DNA from: Lentzea alba
Lineage (GTDB): Bacteria; Actinomycetota; Actinomycetes; Mycobacteriales; Pseudonocardiaceae
Length of the DNA stretch: 64,000 nucleotides
NCBI RefSeq assembly: GCF_011067745.1
Contig: NZ_JAAMPJ010000002.1
Coordinates: forward strand, 62,001 to 126,000
Direction of reading: 5' to 3'
The notes under the pieces are model-generated. The model had not been told where the DNA came from, did no database searches, and saw only the letters and a program-made list of their open reading frames with translations. Positions 2,674-5,746 of this stretch are shown here, piece after piece. The translations under genes and the position numbers were made by a program. Each line of letters opens with the position of its first letter. Position 1 is the first letter of the stretch.

Positions 2674-3587
2674 TCCGCCGTGCGCTCCTGGTCCTGCTGC
2701 TGACGGCCACGACCGCGGGAGAACCCGTCCCCGAGGCCCGCGCGTACCTCGACACCGCCCTCGACCTGCTCCAACAGCACTCCTTCGAGAGCTTGGAGGC
2801 TGACTGGCCGAGGCTGCGTGCCCAAGCTCACCGTGACGCCGCACACGCACGGCGGCCGGCCGACACCTACCCGGCGATCGAACGGGCTATCACCACTCTC
2901 GGCAACCCGCACACCAACCTGCTCGCCTCACCCGACGGCGGCGCGCCGTCGTCGGGTGAGCGCAACGTCCCGGGCGGCCGGATGATCGGCTCCGTCGCCT
3001 ACCTCACGCTGCCGCCGACCGCCTCCGAGGACGGCGACGTGTACGTCGACTCGGGCCGGCGCCTGATGCACGACCTCGTCGCCGCTCACCCCGGCGGCTG
3101 GGTGGTCGACCTGCGCGGCAACTTCGGCGGCGACATGGCCCCGATGCTCACGGTGGTCGCGCCGCTGCTCGGCGAGGGCAAGAAGGGGGCGTTCGTCGGC
3201 CGGGACGGCACCAGGACCGACTGGGGTGTGCGCGACGGCCACGTCTTCAACGGCGAGCTCGTCCGGTTCCCGCAGGTGGAGATGCCCGCGGCGAACGGCG
3301 CGGTCGCGCTGCTGGTCGACGGCCGGACCGCGAGCTCGGGAGAAGCGGTGCTGATCTCGTTCATCGGCGCGCAGAACGCGCGCAGCTTCGGCGGGCCGAC
3401 CGCGGGCTACGCGTCGAGCAACGAGCTGTTCGAACTGCCCGACGGCGCCCAGCTGGCGATCACGACAGCGCTCATGGCCGACCGCACCGGCCGGACGTAC
3501 GGCAACGCCCCGATCACCCCGCACACGCTCGTCGGCGACGGCGACGCGCTCACAGCGGCGATCGAGTGGCTGTCCGAACAGACCTAG
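2670..3587 (+). CDS. S41-family (C-terminal processing) peptidase homologue, exported
   Basis: 305 residues. The start is TTG 2670, overlapping the previous stop by four bases, which suggests translational coupling. The N-terminus is a short signal sequence (MIRRALLVLLLTATTAG). A helical region follows, then an S41 core: GGWVVDLRGNFGGDMAPM, LLVDGRTASSGEAVLISF with the expected nucleophile Ser in TASSGEA, and FGGPTAGYASSNE. No PDZ domain is visible, so it is a minimal S41 enzyme, unlike CtpA-type proteases. It probably acts outside the membrane on an unknown substrate. It ends four bases inside the convergent YciI gene. Confidence 0.85.
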   Translation: MIRRALLVLLLTATTAGEPVPEARAYLDTALDLLQQHSFESLEADWPRLRAQAHRDAAHARRPADTYPAIERAITTLGNPHTNLLASPDGGAPSSGERNVPGGRMIGSVAYLTLPPTASEDGDVYVDSGRRLMHDLVAAHPGGWVVDLRGNFGGDMAPMLTVVAPLLGEGKKGAFVGRDGTRTDWGVRDGHVFNGELVRFPQVEMPAANGAVALLVDGRTASSGEAVLISFIGAQNARSFGGPTAGYASSNELFELPDGAQLAITTALMADRTGRTYGNAPITPHTLVGDGDALTAAIEWLSEQT

Positions 3588-3886
3588 CCCTGCAGCACGG
3601 CCTCGTTCAGCTTCATGAGCTCGGGCGCCGTCCGCGTCGCCTCGAACTCGCAGATCTCGTACTTCACCAGTTTCTGCTCGGCCCACGGGTCCGTGGCGAG
3701 CAGCGCATCGAGCTTCCCGCGGGGCATGGGCCGCGTGATGATCACACCGCCGACCCTCGGCACCTGACGCCCGGAGGCGAGGAACAAACCTCGCTCGTAC
3801 TGCTGCTCGACCCACGCTCGGTGGTCGGGCAGGGCGTAGTCGATCTGTTCCAGTGGCGCGACGTACTTCAGCAGCACGATGAACAT
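3584..3886 (-). CDS. YciI-like small protein
   Basis: A 100-residue protein starting MFIVLLKYVAPLEQIDY, with the YciI pattern: His in LPDHRAWVEQQ, LFLASGRQVPRVGGVIITR, and the WAEQKLVKYEICEF C-terminal strand. YciI proteins are dimeric alpha+beta barrels related to muconolactone isomerases and mostly of unknown function. It is convergent with the S41 gene (4-base overlap) and divergent from the trpS leader, whose promoter starts at its initiation codon. Confidence 0.85.
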   Translation of the reverse strand: MFIVLLKYVAPLEQIDYALPDHRAWVEQQYERGLFLASGRQVPRVGGVIITRPMPRGKLDALLATDPWAEQKLVKYEICEFEATRTAPELMKLNEAVLQG

Positions 3887-3908
3887 CCTTCAACGGTAGT
3901 CCTATACT
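3880..3908 (+). promoter_or_regulatory. Promoter of the trpS leader transcript
   Basis: TGAACA at 3880-3885, a 17-base spacer and TATACT at 3903-3908 match a housekeeping promoter. The leader ATG is at 3916, seven bases after the -10, so transcription would begin at or next to the AUG, giving a leaderless leader peptide. Confidence 0.65.
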
Positions 3909-3915
3909 GCCGAAC

Positions 3916-3966
3916 ATGCGCACGATGAACGCCTACTGGTGGGCCGCTTTCAGGCGGCCGGAGTAG
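3916..3966 (+). CDS. trpS leader peptide with tandem Trp codons
   Basis: The 16-codon ORF reads MRTMNAYWWAAFRRPE then TAG. The two adjacent UGG codons would stall ribosomes when charged tRNA-Trp is scarce. The Trp codons are directly followed by the first strand of a nested hairpin set leading into a terminator before trpS, the defining layout of ribosome-mediated attenuation. No Shine-Dalgarno is present, and the promoter spacing suggests leaderless translation. Short leader peptides of this kind are described for the inducible auxiliary trpS of Streptomyces coelicolor. Confidence 0.85.
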   Translation: MRTMNAYWWAAFRRPE

Positions 3967-4013
3967 CTGTGCGCTGACGCGTTCACAGGCCGCCCGAGAC
4001 GGGCGGCTTTTTT
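3942..4013 (+). promoter_or_regulatory. Tryptophan attenuator (1:2, 2:3 and 3:4 stems)
   Basis: Segment 1 GGCCGC (3942-3947) pairs with segment 2 GCGGCC (3954-3959). Segment 2 GGCGGCC (3953-3959) is fully complementary to segment 3 GGCCGCC (3988-3994), forming the antiterminator. Segment 3 GCCGCCC (3989-3995) pairs with segment 4 GGGCGGC (4001-4007) and is followed by six T, forming the terminator. The Trp-Trp codons end immediately upstream of segment 1, so a ribosome stalled there would mask segment 1 and free segment 2. Confidence 0.85.
3989..4013 (+). terminator. Intrinsic terminator of the trpS attenuator
   Basis: A 7-bp GC stem (GCCGCCC/GGGCGGC) with a GAGAC loop and a run of six T at 4008-4013, 44 bases before the trpS start. 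This is a classical factor-independent terminator, unusual in this window where other hairpins lack T tracts. Confidence 0.88.
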
Positions 4014-4056
4014 GTGCGTTTCGTCCGGGCGGTCCTTCACGGAAGGACCAACGACC

Positions 4057-4980
4057 ATGATCCGCTTGTCCGCCATCACCCCGTCGGGCCAAGTCCACCT
4101 GGGCAACTACCTCGGGGCGTTGCGCACGTGGGCTCGTGAGGGCACCGACGAGGACGTGTACTTCATCAGCGATCTGCACGCGATGACGTCGTCGCACAAC
4201 CCACAACGTCTGCGATCCCTGACCAGGGAGCAGTTCGCGGTGCTCATCGCGTCCGGCATCGCCCCGGAGAGCACCTGCGTGCAGAGCGACCTGATCCGCG
4301 AACTGGGGGCGCTCAACTGGGTGCTGGAGTGCACCTGCACGTACGGGGAGGCCGCGCGGATGATCCAGTTCAAGGAGAAGTCGCTCGGGCGCGACTCCGT
4401 CCGCCTCAGCCTGCTCACCTACCCGGTGCTGATGGCCGCGGACATCCTGTTGCAGGGCACCGCGGAGGTCCCGGTCGGCGAGGACCAGCTCCAGCACGTC
4501 GAGCTGGCCCGTGCGCTCGCCCGCCGCTTCAACCACGCGTACGGCGAGGCGTTCATCGTCCCGACCGCGGTGGTGCCGAAGGTCGGAGCGCGCATCAAGG
4601 ACCTCTCGGACCCGACGCGCAAGATGGACAAGTCCGCCCAGAACTCCACGGGCGTCGTGTTCGTCCTGGACGATCCGGACCTGGTGCGGCGCAAGGTCCG
4701 GCGGGCCGTGTCGTCCACCGAGGGCATCGCGAACCTGACCGAGATCCTCGTCTCCTGCACCGGCAAGGACCCCGAGGACTACACGAGCAGGTTCGCGGAC
4801 CTCAAGAACGTCGTGGCCGAAGCGGTGATCGAAGAACTGAGGCCCGTGCGCGACCGCACGCTGGAACTCCTCGCGGACCCGGCGGAACTGGACCGCGTCC
4901 GGCAGGCGGGCGCGGAACGGGCCCGCGAACGCGCGCAGCACCGGCTGAACGCGGCGCTGCGCCTGTCCGGACTCAGTTGA
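4057..4980 (+). CDS. trpS: Tryptophanyl-tRNA synthetase, attenuator-controlled (auxiliary type)
   Basis: A 307-residue class I aminoacyl-tRNA synthetase that charges tRNA-Trp. It has HLGNYLGALR (HIGH motif) at residues 14-23, GEAARMIQFKEK, VPVGEDQLQHVELAR and KMDKS (KMSKS motif). Start ATG 4057 follows GGAAGGA; the in-frame upstream extension would run into the attenuator. It is slightly short for TrpRS (330-340) because a loop before the C-terminal helices is missing. The residue matching Gln9 of the Bacillus stearothermophilus enzyme is Thr (SAITPSG). The attenuator in front is the hallmark of inducible auxiliary TrpRS genes linked to indolmycin resistance; that role here is inference. The gene ends convergently, overlapping the NUDIX gene. 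Confidence 0.93.
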   Translation: MIRLSAITPSGQVHLGNYLGALRTWAREGTDEDVYFISDLHAMTSSHNPQRLRSLTREQFAVLIASGIAPESTCVQSDLIRELGALNWVLECTCTYGEAARMIQFKEKSLGRDSVRLSLLTYPVLMAADILLQGTAEVPVGEDQLQHVELARALARRFNHAYGEAFIVPTAVVPKVGARIKDLSDPTRKMDKSAQNSTGVVFVLDDPDLVRRKVRRAVSSTEGIANLTEILVSCTGKDPEDYTSRFADLKNVVAEAVIEELRPVRDRTLELLADPAELDRVRQAGAERARERAQHRLNAALRLSGLS

Positions 4981-5746
4981 GGAGCGTTTGAAGGGCAGGT
5001 ACCAGCACCCGGTCCGCCGGCAGCCAGTCCACCCCGGGCAGCTCGTCGGCGGTGAGCCACCGGACAGCGTTGTGCTCCAACGCTTCCGGCTCACCGCCGA
5101 CGAGCGATGCCGCGTAGATCCGCAACACCATGTCCTTCTTCAACGGCACGTCCGGCCCGACCTGCTCGCCAACGGCGACCGGCACGCCGAGCTCTTCCAC
5201 GCATTCGCGCACCAACGCGTCCGTCGGCTTCTCGCCGGGCTCGACCCGCCCACCGGGCAGTTCCCACTGCCCCGCATGGCTTTCCGGATAGGACCGCTGC
5301 TGGGCCAGCAACCGTCCATCCCGGACGATCGCCGCCCCGACCACGACCCGGGCCGCCCGAAGTTCCTCACACCGCGCGGCCAGCAACGCCGACCGCTTCT
5401 GCAGCACCCGCAACGCCATCCCGCGCCCGACCGTGACGTCCGCGAACCGCCCGACCACGCCACCCACGGTCGTCCAGCTGACCCGGTCGATCACCATCGT
5501 CCCGGCCCCGGTCACCACCAGATCCGTGTGCAGCTCCAGAAACTCCCCGGCAGCGGACACACCGGACAGATCAGCCCGCGTGACCGTCAGTCGGACCCCG
5601 AACGGTCCGGCCAGCTCGTCTCCCAGGCACAGCAGGGAACCCCGCACCTTCACCCCGAACCCCGTAATCAGTGAGGTCTCCAGCAGGGCTCCGGCAACAG
5701 CGGCAACTGGCGCGTCGACCAGCGCCGACGCTCGCAATTCTGGCAC
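4973..5746 (-). CDS. SRPBCC-like/NUDIX fusion, MutT-type pyrophosphohydrolase
   Basis: 257 residues. About 1-125 look like a SRPBCC (polyketide cyclase-type) fold: SALVDAPVAAVAGALLET, a strand-rich middle, and a C-terminal helix ending RSALLAARCEELR. Residues 130-257 are a NUDIX hydrolase with GGRVEPGEKPTDALVRECVEELGV, matching the NUDIX box (G-x5-E-x7-RE-x2-EE-x-G). The second domain resembles (d)NTP pyrophosphohydrolases that remove oxidised nucleotides. The start is a GTG at 5746, nine bases after the histidine kinase stop, so it may be cotranscribed with the kinase/regulator pair. Confidence 0.85.
   Translation of the reverse strand: MPELRASALVDAPVAAVAGALLETSLITGFGVKVRGSLLCLGDELAGPFGVRLTVTRADLSGVSAAGEFLELHTDLVVTGAGTMVIDRVSWTTVGGVVGRFADVTVGRGMALRVLQKRSALLAARCEELRAARVVVGAAIVRDGRLLAQQRSYPESHAGQWELPGGRVEPGEKPTDALVRECVEELGVPVAVGEQVGPDVPLKKDMVLRIYAASLVGGEPEALEHNAVRWLTADELPGVDWLPADRVLVPALQTLLN

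Follow-up and report, generated by a model that had tools for sequence, protein, structure and literature searches.

Organization of the auxiliary trpS locus

The stretch of the Lentzea alba genome that was analysed (the window; 64,000 nucleotides) encodes on its forward strand an auxiliary tryptophanyl-tRNA synthetase (TrpRS) of 307 residues (trpS, 4057-4980), preceded by an open reading frame of 16 codons (MRTMNAYWWAAFRRPE*, 3916-3966, ATG at 3916) that is predicted to be a leaderless leader peptide and in which two adjacent Trp codons, the control codons, can be read directly (3937-3942). The promoter (3880-3908) consists of a weak -35 hexamer TGAACA (3880-3885), a spacer of 17 nt and the -10 hexamer TATACT (3903-3908), with a score of 9/12 across both hexamers; 7 bases separate the -10 hexamer from the leader ATG. 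A gene encoding a YCII-domain protein (3584-3886, reverse strand) is divergently oriented, and its 5' end overlaps the -35 region.

Three stems were delineated in the leader by folding: stem 1:2 (3942-3948:3953-3959), between the protector arm (segment 1) and segment 2 (GGCGGCC); stem 2:3 (3953-3959:3988-3994), in which segment 2 takes segment 3 (3987-3996) as its alternative partner; and stem 3:4 (3987-3996:4000-4009). Segment 3, located by scan and fold, provides both the 3' arm of the antiterminator and the 5' arm of the terminator, and segment 4 with a tract of six T (4008-4013) completes an intrinsic terminator (4000-4013) that was picked up by the terminator scan. Thus, the leader combines a short open reading frame containing codons for the regulated amino acid with an antiterminator and an intrinsic terminator that, from sequence and folding, are mutually exclusive. 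An earlier reading of the letters alone (the sequence-only reading) had described a -10 hexamer seven bases before an AUG, a 16-codon Trp-Trp peptide, three mutually exclusive stems, a T-tract terminator and a TrpRS gene, and every one of these features was recovered by sequence and folds between 3903 and 4980.

The fold of the leader (3916-4016) had a z score of -3.0, which none of 200 shuffles equalled. Pattern scans of positions 3500-5100 gave one promoter-like site where 0.1 was expected and one terminator-like site where 0.8 was expected, the latter not being above shuffles; on their own, these scans of the window are the weaker support. No matches to Rfam were found at gathering score across the 64 kb window, and a T-box or another Rfam leader was rejected because no curated RNA family matched.

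Leaderless spacing in related genomes

The leader was compared across 91 loci, comprising 25 Lentzea loci from 24 genomes and 66 loci of the same family that are the best-scoring among the matches listed, a non-random draw. Merging of identical rows reduced the 91 loci to 83 for the swap test of helix 0:0' (below), 85 for the spacing control and the swap test of the Shine-Dalgarno (SD) hairpin, and 86 for the alignment pool and synonymous recoding. The procedure by which leaders were chosen examined spacings of 4 to 10 nt, required at least one Trp codon, and favoured a spacing of 7 and a second Trp codon. In all 91 loci (25 Lentzea and 66 best-scoring family loci) a Trp leader was found to start 6 to 9 nt 3' of a TAnnnT box, at spacings of 7 nt (65 loci), 6 nt (23), 8 nt (2) or 9 nt (1), with ATG (50) or GTG (41) as the start codon. 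The second Trp codon is kept in 82 of the 91 loci, its position being occupied by Arg or Gln in 8 of the 25 Lentzea loci; the Trp-Trp pair is thus not strictly conserved.

Because the choice of leaders favoured a spacing of 7, a spacing control was run: a TAnnnT box lies 6 or 7 nt before an in-frame ATG or GTG in 82 of 85 distinct leaders, compared to 0.8 expected from dinucleotide shuffles, and among all 9565 ATG or GTG triplets in the loci 174 have the box at this spacing. The -10 hexamer is TATACT in 24 of the 25 Lentzea loci and TAGAAT in the remaining one. Of the 85 distinct leaders, 6 have an SD-like motif before the leader start, and for 57 such a motif falls within the 18 nt that precede the start of the trpS match. 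Judging from the conserved -10 spacing, the shuffle control and the rarity of SD-like motifs before the leader, the transcript would very likely start at or next to position 3916. Spacers of 5 to 7 nt between the -10 hexamer and the transcript start are reported to account for 88.7% of those in S. lividans (PMC8079986).

Folding of the leader stems

Constrained folding of the first 84 nt, when segment 4 has yet to be made, showed that segment 2 is free and stem 2:3 forms (-20.4 kcal/mol) when a ribosome occupies the Trp codons, and that 2:3 is absent with no ribosome or with a ribosome at the stop codon. At 100 nt, the minimum-energy fold contains stem 3:4 whatever the state, a stalled ribosome included, and on these models antitermination would have to be kinetic. 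When 28 leaders out of the 86 distinct ones were aligned, the pairs of stem 2:3 proved to be formed in 99.5% of cells; as the paired positions are nearly invariant, they yield no covariation evidence for this stem. The terminator hairpin, the start spacing and one Trp codon are found together in all 25 Lentzea loci, and several family loci have no clear U tract after 3:4.

A GGCGG-type motif is present between the terminator and the trpS start in 58 of 89 loci, where 16.3 were expected from mononucleotide shuffles that ignore kinship. As an extra partner for segment 3 this motif was rejected on the basis of folds, in which its mean pairing with segment 3 is 0.19, compared to 0.63 for the segment 2 region.

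Two additional helices

Two helices that do not appear in the sequence-only reading were noticed here. In the first, 0:0', arm 0 (GCGCACG, 3918-3924), which takes in the G of the start codon, can pair with arm 0' (UGUGCGC, 3968-3974) shortly 3' of the leader stop codon, so that the first codons of the leader are joined to RNA just beyond its end. The second is a hairpin (4031-4049; GGUCCUUC-ACG-GAAGGACC) in which 4031-4038 pairs with 4042-4049 across the trpS ribosome-binding site (GGAAGGA, 4041-4047). Both were detected by folding and examined by swap tests, which compare the pairing of a locus's own arms with that of arms exchanged between loci and do not depend on alignment.

The arms of 0:0' change together among relatives, as GCAGTGTC with GACACTGC (L093), GCACCAGC with GCTGGTGC (L090), GCGCAA with TTGCGC (L053) and TGCGCAACA with TGTTGCG (L052). 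Across 60 distinct non-Lentzea family loci, the mean duplex energy was -15.8 kcal/mol for own arms and -13.0 kcal/mol for swapped arms (z -8.5, 0/5000), and the own duplex was better than the mean of its swaps in 50 of the 60. The signal persisted in a set of 24 loci that represent 23 genera (z -5.2, 0/20000), made up of 20 family loci from 19 genera (one genus being represented twice, by L046 and L093) and 4 outside loci, although the own partner ranked alone in first place at just 3 of the 24. Lentzea alone gave no signal (z +0.3, 3070/5000), because the Lentzea sequences are very alike. Control swaps were flat, both for arm 0 with the SD region (z +1.3; z -1.4 across 19 genera) and for arm 0 with the region after the terminator (z -0.6). 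For 70 of the 86 distinct leaders, the probability that the start-codon G pairs with the 0' region exceeds 0.5. Loci of the Streptomyces-type group f20 have a 0:0' helix of other sequence, for example GCGTACGTG with CACGTATGC, and their arm 0 mostly begins near nucleotide 8 and not at the start codon.

RNAalifold, applied to 28 hand-chosen sequences among the 86 distinct leaders, omits 0:0'. In the alignment of these 28 sequences, 75.9% of the 0:0' cells pair and changes on both sides occur at 3 of 6 pairs, and 19 of 27 lack the pair 18:68. The helix was nonetheless retained, since the swap tests need no alignment and their negative controls were flat. Without a ribosome, 0:0' is present in the folds at 72 and 100 nt; at 84 nt the minimum keeps 1:2, and another pairing replaces 0:0'. 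When the leader codons are replaced by synonymous ones, 0:0' becomes weaker on average (-15.4 observed, -13.3 recoded); the observed helix is better than the recoded mean in 75 of 86 leaders, yet 28% of the recoded versions equal or surpass it.

For the SD hairpin, own arms were better than swapped arms across 85 distinct loci (z -7.2, 0/5000) and across 19 loci, each of a different genus (z -4.2, 1/20000), and the signal in Lentzea alone was weak (z -1.7, 249/5000). No such signal was found at the housekeeping trpS of the best 30 of 60 genomes (z +1.2), for which the start codon was chosen by a rule favouring an SD-like motif. Two loci (L024 and L093) were excluded from the SD-hairpin swap, the swap controls, the accessibility tests and the GGCGG tests. 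The mean predicted accessibility of the SD site in 89 loci was 0.38 with no ribosome, 0.37 with a stalled ribosome and 0.39 with the terminator also blocked. A role as a switch that reads the state of the ribosome is not supported by these values, which are the same in all states, and the hairpin would, as modelled, act as a damper.

Two tryptophanyl-tRNA synthetases

The L. alba genome encodes two TrpRS proteins, that of the window (221.8 bits against TIGR00233) and a housekeeping enzyme (362.4 bits; G000:C1:1287072-1288049). The sequence-only reading had proposed a search of the genome for a second trpS without a leader, and the housekeeping copy proved to be such a gene, with no Trp leader found within 400 nt upstream. 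The window-type trpS is present in all 24 Lentzea genomes searched, at 78-100% identity, and both copies are present in 23 of them, the exception (G013, 92% complete) showing the auxiliary copy only. The closest named loci to the window protein are on Lentzea contigs (the best 99% identical), and one contig of the same group is filed as Nocardia sp.

A Trp leader precedes each of 91 auxiliary genes (25 of Lentzea and 66 best-scoring in the family). Before the housekeeping gene none was found within 330 nt in 6 Lentzea loci, nor within 400 nt in 30 family loci (the best 30 of 60 genomes, the L. alba copy included). The leaders are leaderless-spaced at all 12 auxiliary loci of group f20 and all 5 of group f18; no leaderless Trp leader was found at the three auxiliary-type TrpRS genes of group f28 (L194-L196). 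In a tree of 29 TrpRS proteins, 16 auxiliary enzymes were separated from 13 others (12 actinobacterial enzymes and Bst) with 100/100 support for the split. The window enzyme falls on the side that includes the Streptomyces-type auxiliary enzymes, whose genes carry similar leaders, which bears out its identification as an auxiliary enzyme with a separate housekeeping paralog.

The position of Gln9 in Bst TrpRS is occupied by Gln in all 13 of the other enzymes and by Thr or Lys in all 16 auxiliary enzymes: Thr in the window enzyme, as the sequence-only reading had noted (Thr8 aligns with Bst Gln9), and Lys in each of the four auxiliary enzymes from f20 in the comparison. This replacement would fit an altered inhibitor profile common to auxiliary enzymes, although it is a correlate of indolmycin resistance and not an established mark of it. 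Replacement of His43 of Bst TrpRS by Asn is reported to confer indolmycin resistance (PMC4899734), and a review lists TrpRS1 as indolmycin-resistant, citing a study of S. coelicolor (PMC9437257). His43 is His in all 29 aligned TrpRS proteins, without a replacement of the resistance type, and the window enzyme is identical to Bst TrpRS at the pocket residues His43, Gln107, Lys111, Tyr125, Met129 and Asp132.

The third residue of the KMSKS motif is altered in the window enzyme (KMDKS, 4621-4635), and KMGKS or KMAKS is found in some other auxiliary enzymes.

Proposed mechanism and alternatives

The auxiliary TrpRS gene is quite probably controlled by a ribosome-mediated transcription attenuator, with helix 0:0' and the SD hairpin as extra parts. 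Transcription would begin on or beside the start codon of the leader, and the conserved spacing suggests that a ribosome would load at the 5' end without an SD site. With charged Trp-tRNA in ample supply, the ribosome would reach the stop codon and cover segment 2, and the 3:4 terminator would form. With charged Trp-tRNA in short supply, because the cell is starved of Trp or the housekeeping TrpRS is inhibited, the ribosome would stall on the Trp codons. Segment 1 and the greater part of arm 0 would then lie under the ribosome, segment 2 would pair with segment 3, and RNA polymerase would enter trpS. If no ribosome arrived in time, 0:0' would enclose hairpin 1:2 and shut off the start region, and the transcript would terminate. 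The SD hairpin would hold translation of the read-through mRNA low. The window enzyme may also tolerate such inhibitors, as the sequence-only reading had proposed. Induction by Trp limitation or by a TrpRS inhibitor is suggested by analogy with S. coelicolor, whose auxiliary antibiotic-resistant trpRS1 was reportedly studied by experiment by Vecchione and Sello in 2010 and is said to be under ribosome-mediated attenuation. The S. coelicolor attenuator was reportedly studied by experiment, whereas the system of the window is known from its sequence.

Three other accounts of the locus were weighed. The weak -35 hexamer would suit a leader translated by ordinary initiation from a longer transcript, with TATACT not being the promoter used, but this is most improbable in view of the -10 spacing (82/85, compared to 0.8 expected), the few SD-like motifs before leader starts (6/85), and RNA-seq data from S. 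lividans that are reported to place the start of trpL2 in a leaderless position (PMC8079986). If translation were the main level of control, the SD hairpin and not the terminator would set expression, an arrangement partly compatible with an attenuator. The covariation of the hairpin arms across the 19 loci of different genera (z -4.2, 1/20000), with no such signal at the housekeeping trpS of the best 30 of 60 genomes (z +1.2), favours this account; it is unlikely, however, given that the SD site is about equally accessible (0.38, 0.37 or 0.39) whatever the state of the ribosome or terminator, and that the Lentzea-only signal is weak (z -1.7, 249/5000).

A leader that is decaying or constitutive, belonging to an auxiliary TrpRS that does not respond to Trp or that acts on another substrate, might explain why the second Trp codon is lost in 8 of 25 Lentzea loci, why KMSKS is altered and why several family loci show no clear U tract after 3:4. 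This account is very unlikely, given that the start spacing, one Trp codon and the terminator hairpin recur in 25 of 25 Lentzea loci and that the six pocket residues named above are preserved in the window enzyme.

Relation to known attenuators

The attenuator of the E. coli trp operon operates by the same logic of stems 1:2, 2:3 and 3:4, with adjacent Trp codons in its leader peptide. It differs from the window in having an SD-led leader and governing a biosynthetic operon, whereas the leader of the window is predicted to be leaderless and precedes trpS.

Among actinobacteria, the trpL2-trpS locus of S. lividans TK24 is described as a trpS gene preceded by a leaderless Trp leader that forms two hairpins (PMC8079986), an arrangement like that predicted for the window. 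The trpL2 leader is reported to have one Trp codon and no uridine-rich stretch (PMC8079986), in contrast to the two Trp codons and six T of the window leader. The trpL2 peptide MMTRTCTQLWRAA resembles the auxiliary leaders of group f20, such as MTTRTCTQLWWAA. From this resemblance f20 is presumably Streptomyces, and SLIV_21110, on account of its leader, is presumably the auxiliary copy of S. lividans. A classical attenuator was predicted before trpS2 of S. avermitilis in 2005 (PMC1262725); that paper does not use the term leaderless, which is predicted to apply to the window leader. Leaderless trpS attenuation is therefore of an already known kind, a leaderless leader having been reported in S. 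lividans and an attenuator predicted in S. avermitilis. The sequence-only reading had considered that a leaderless attenuator peptide would be noteworthy; examples were already in print, in S. lividans (trpL2 and others; PMC8079986) and in C. glutamicum ilvBNC (PMC11857589).

The ilvBNC leader of C. glutamicum is leaderless, as that of the window is predicted to be; its hairpin H1 is proposed to shield the start and to act as an anti-antiterminator, and its translation is said to need synchrony with transcription (PMC11857589). H1 may be likened to 0:0' together with 1:2 in the window, although ilvBNC is a biosynthetic operon responding to branched-chain amino acids (PMC11857589), whereas the window concerns Trp and trpS. 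Leaderless short open reading frames, as predicted for the window, are also found in mycobacteria, in which polycysteine frames are described as amino-acid-responsive attenuators (Canestrari 2020, cited in PMC13236596), but these act on cysteine genes and are described as working by translation attenuation (PMC13236596). Neither 0:0' nor an SD hairpin before an auxiliary trpS was found in the searchable literature, a scope outside which the key S. coelicolor papers lie. A leaderless Trp-rich leader was not found within 450 nt upstream of the match in any of 24 Lentzea trpE loci (L217-L240), whereas such a leader is reported for S. lividans as trpL1 (PMC8079986).

The actinobacterial auxiliary trpS leader may, as a tentative and somewhat doubtful generalization, be a three-step RNA device consisting of an attenuator, a start lock (0:0') and an SD-masking hairpin. 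If so, 0:0' would fold the first codons onto RNA made about 50 nt later and create a window of time in which translation must begin now or never; antitermination would be possible only through ribosome loading on the nascent 5' end, late or released transcripts would be locked and terminated, and SD masking would cause even read-through mRNA to be translated sparingly. In leaderless attenuators it is a puzzle how a ribosome gets onto a start codon at the very 5' end in time to control a terminator some 70 nt further on, and a start-covering helix with cross-genus covariation is a directly testable element for that loading puzzle. Such a helix may be general in leaderless attenuators, since 0:0' recurs in Streptomyces-type loci and a counterpart has been proposed in ilvBNC. 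The auxiliary TrpRS points to a reserve of tRNA-charging capacity that is widespread in soil actinomycetes and probably inducible.

Two irregularities were noted among the auxiliary trpS genes of Lentzea. One gene (L024) departs from the reading frame of its relatives at about codon 15, with a match that starts at residue 9, which may reflect a frameshift or an assembly error. One assembly (G017) contains two auxiliary trpS genes of equal score on different contigs (L007 and L027), which may represent a recent duplication or an assembly artefact.
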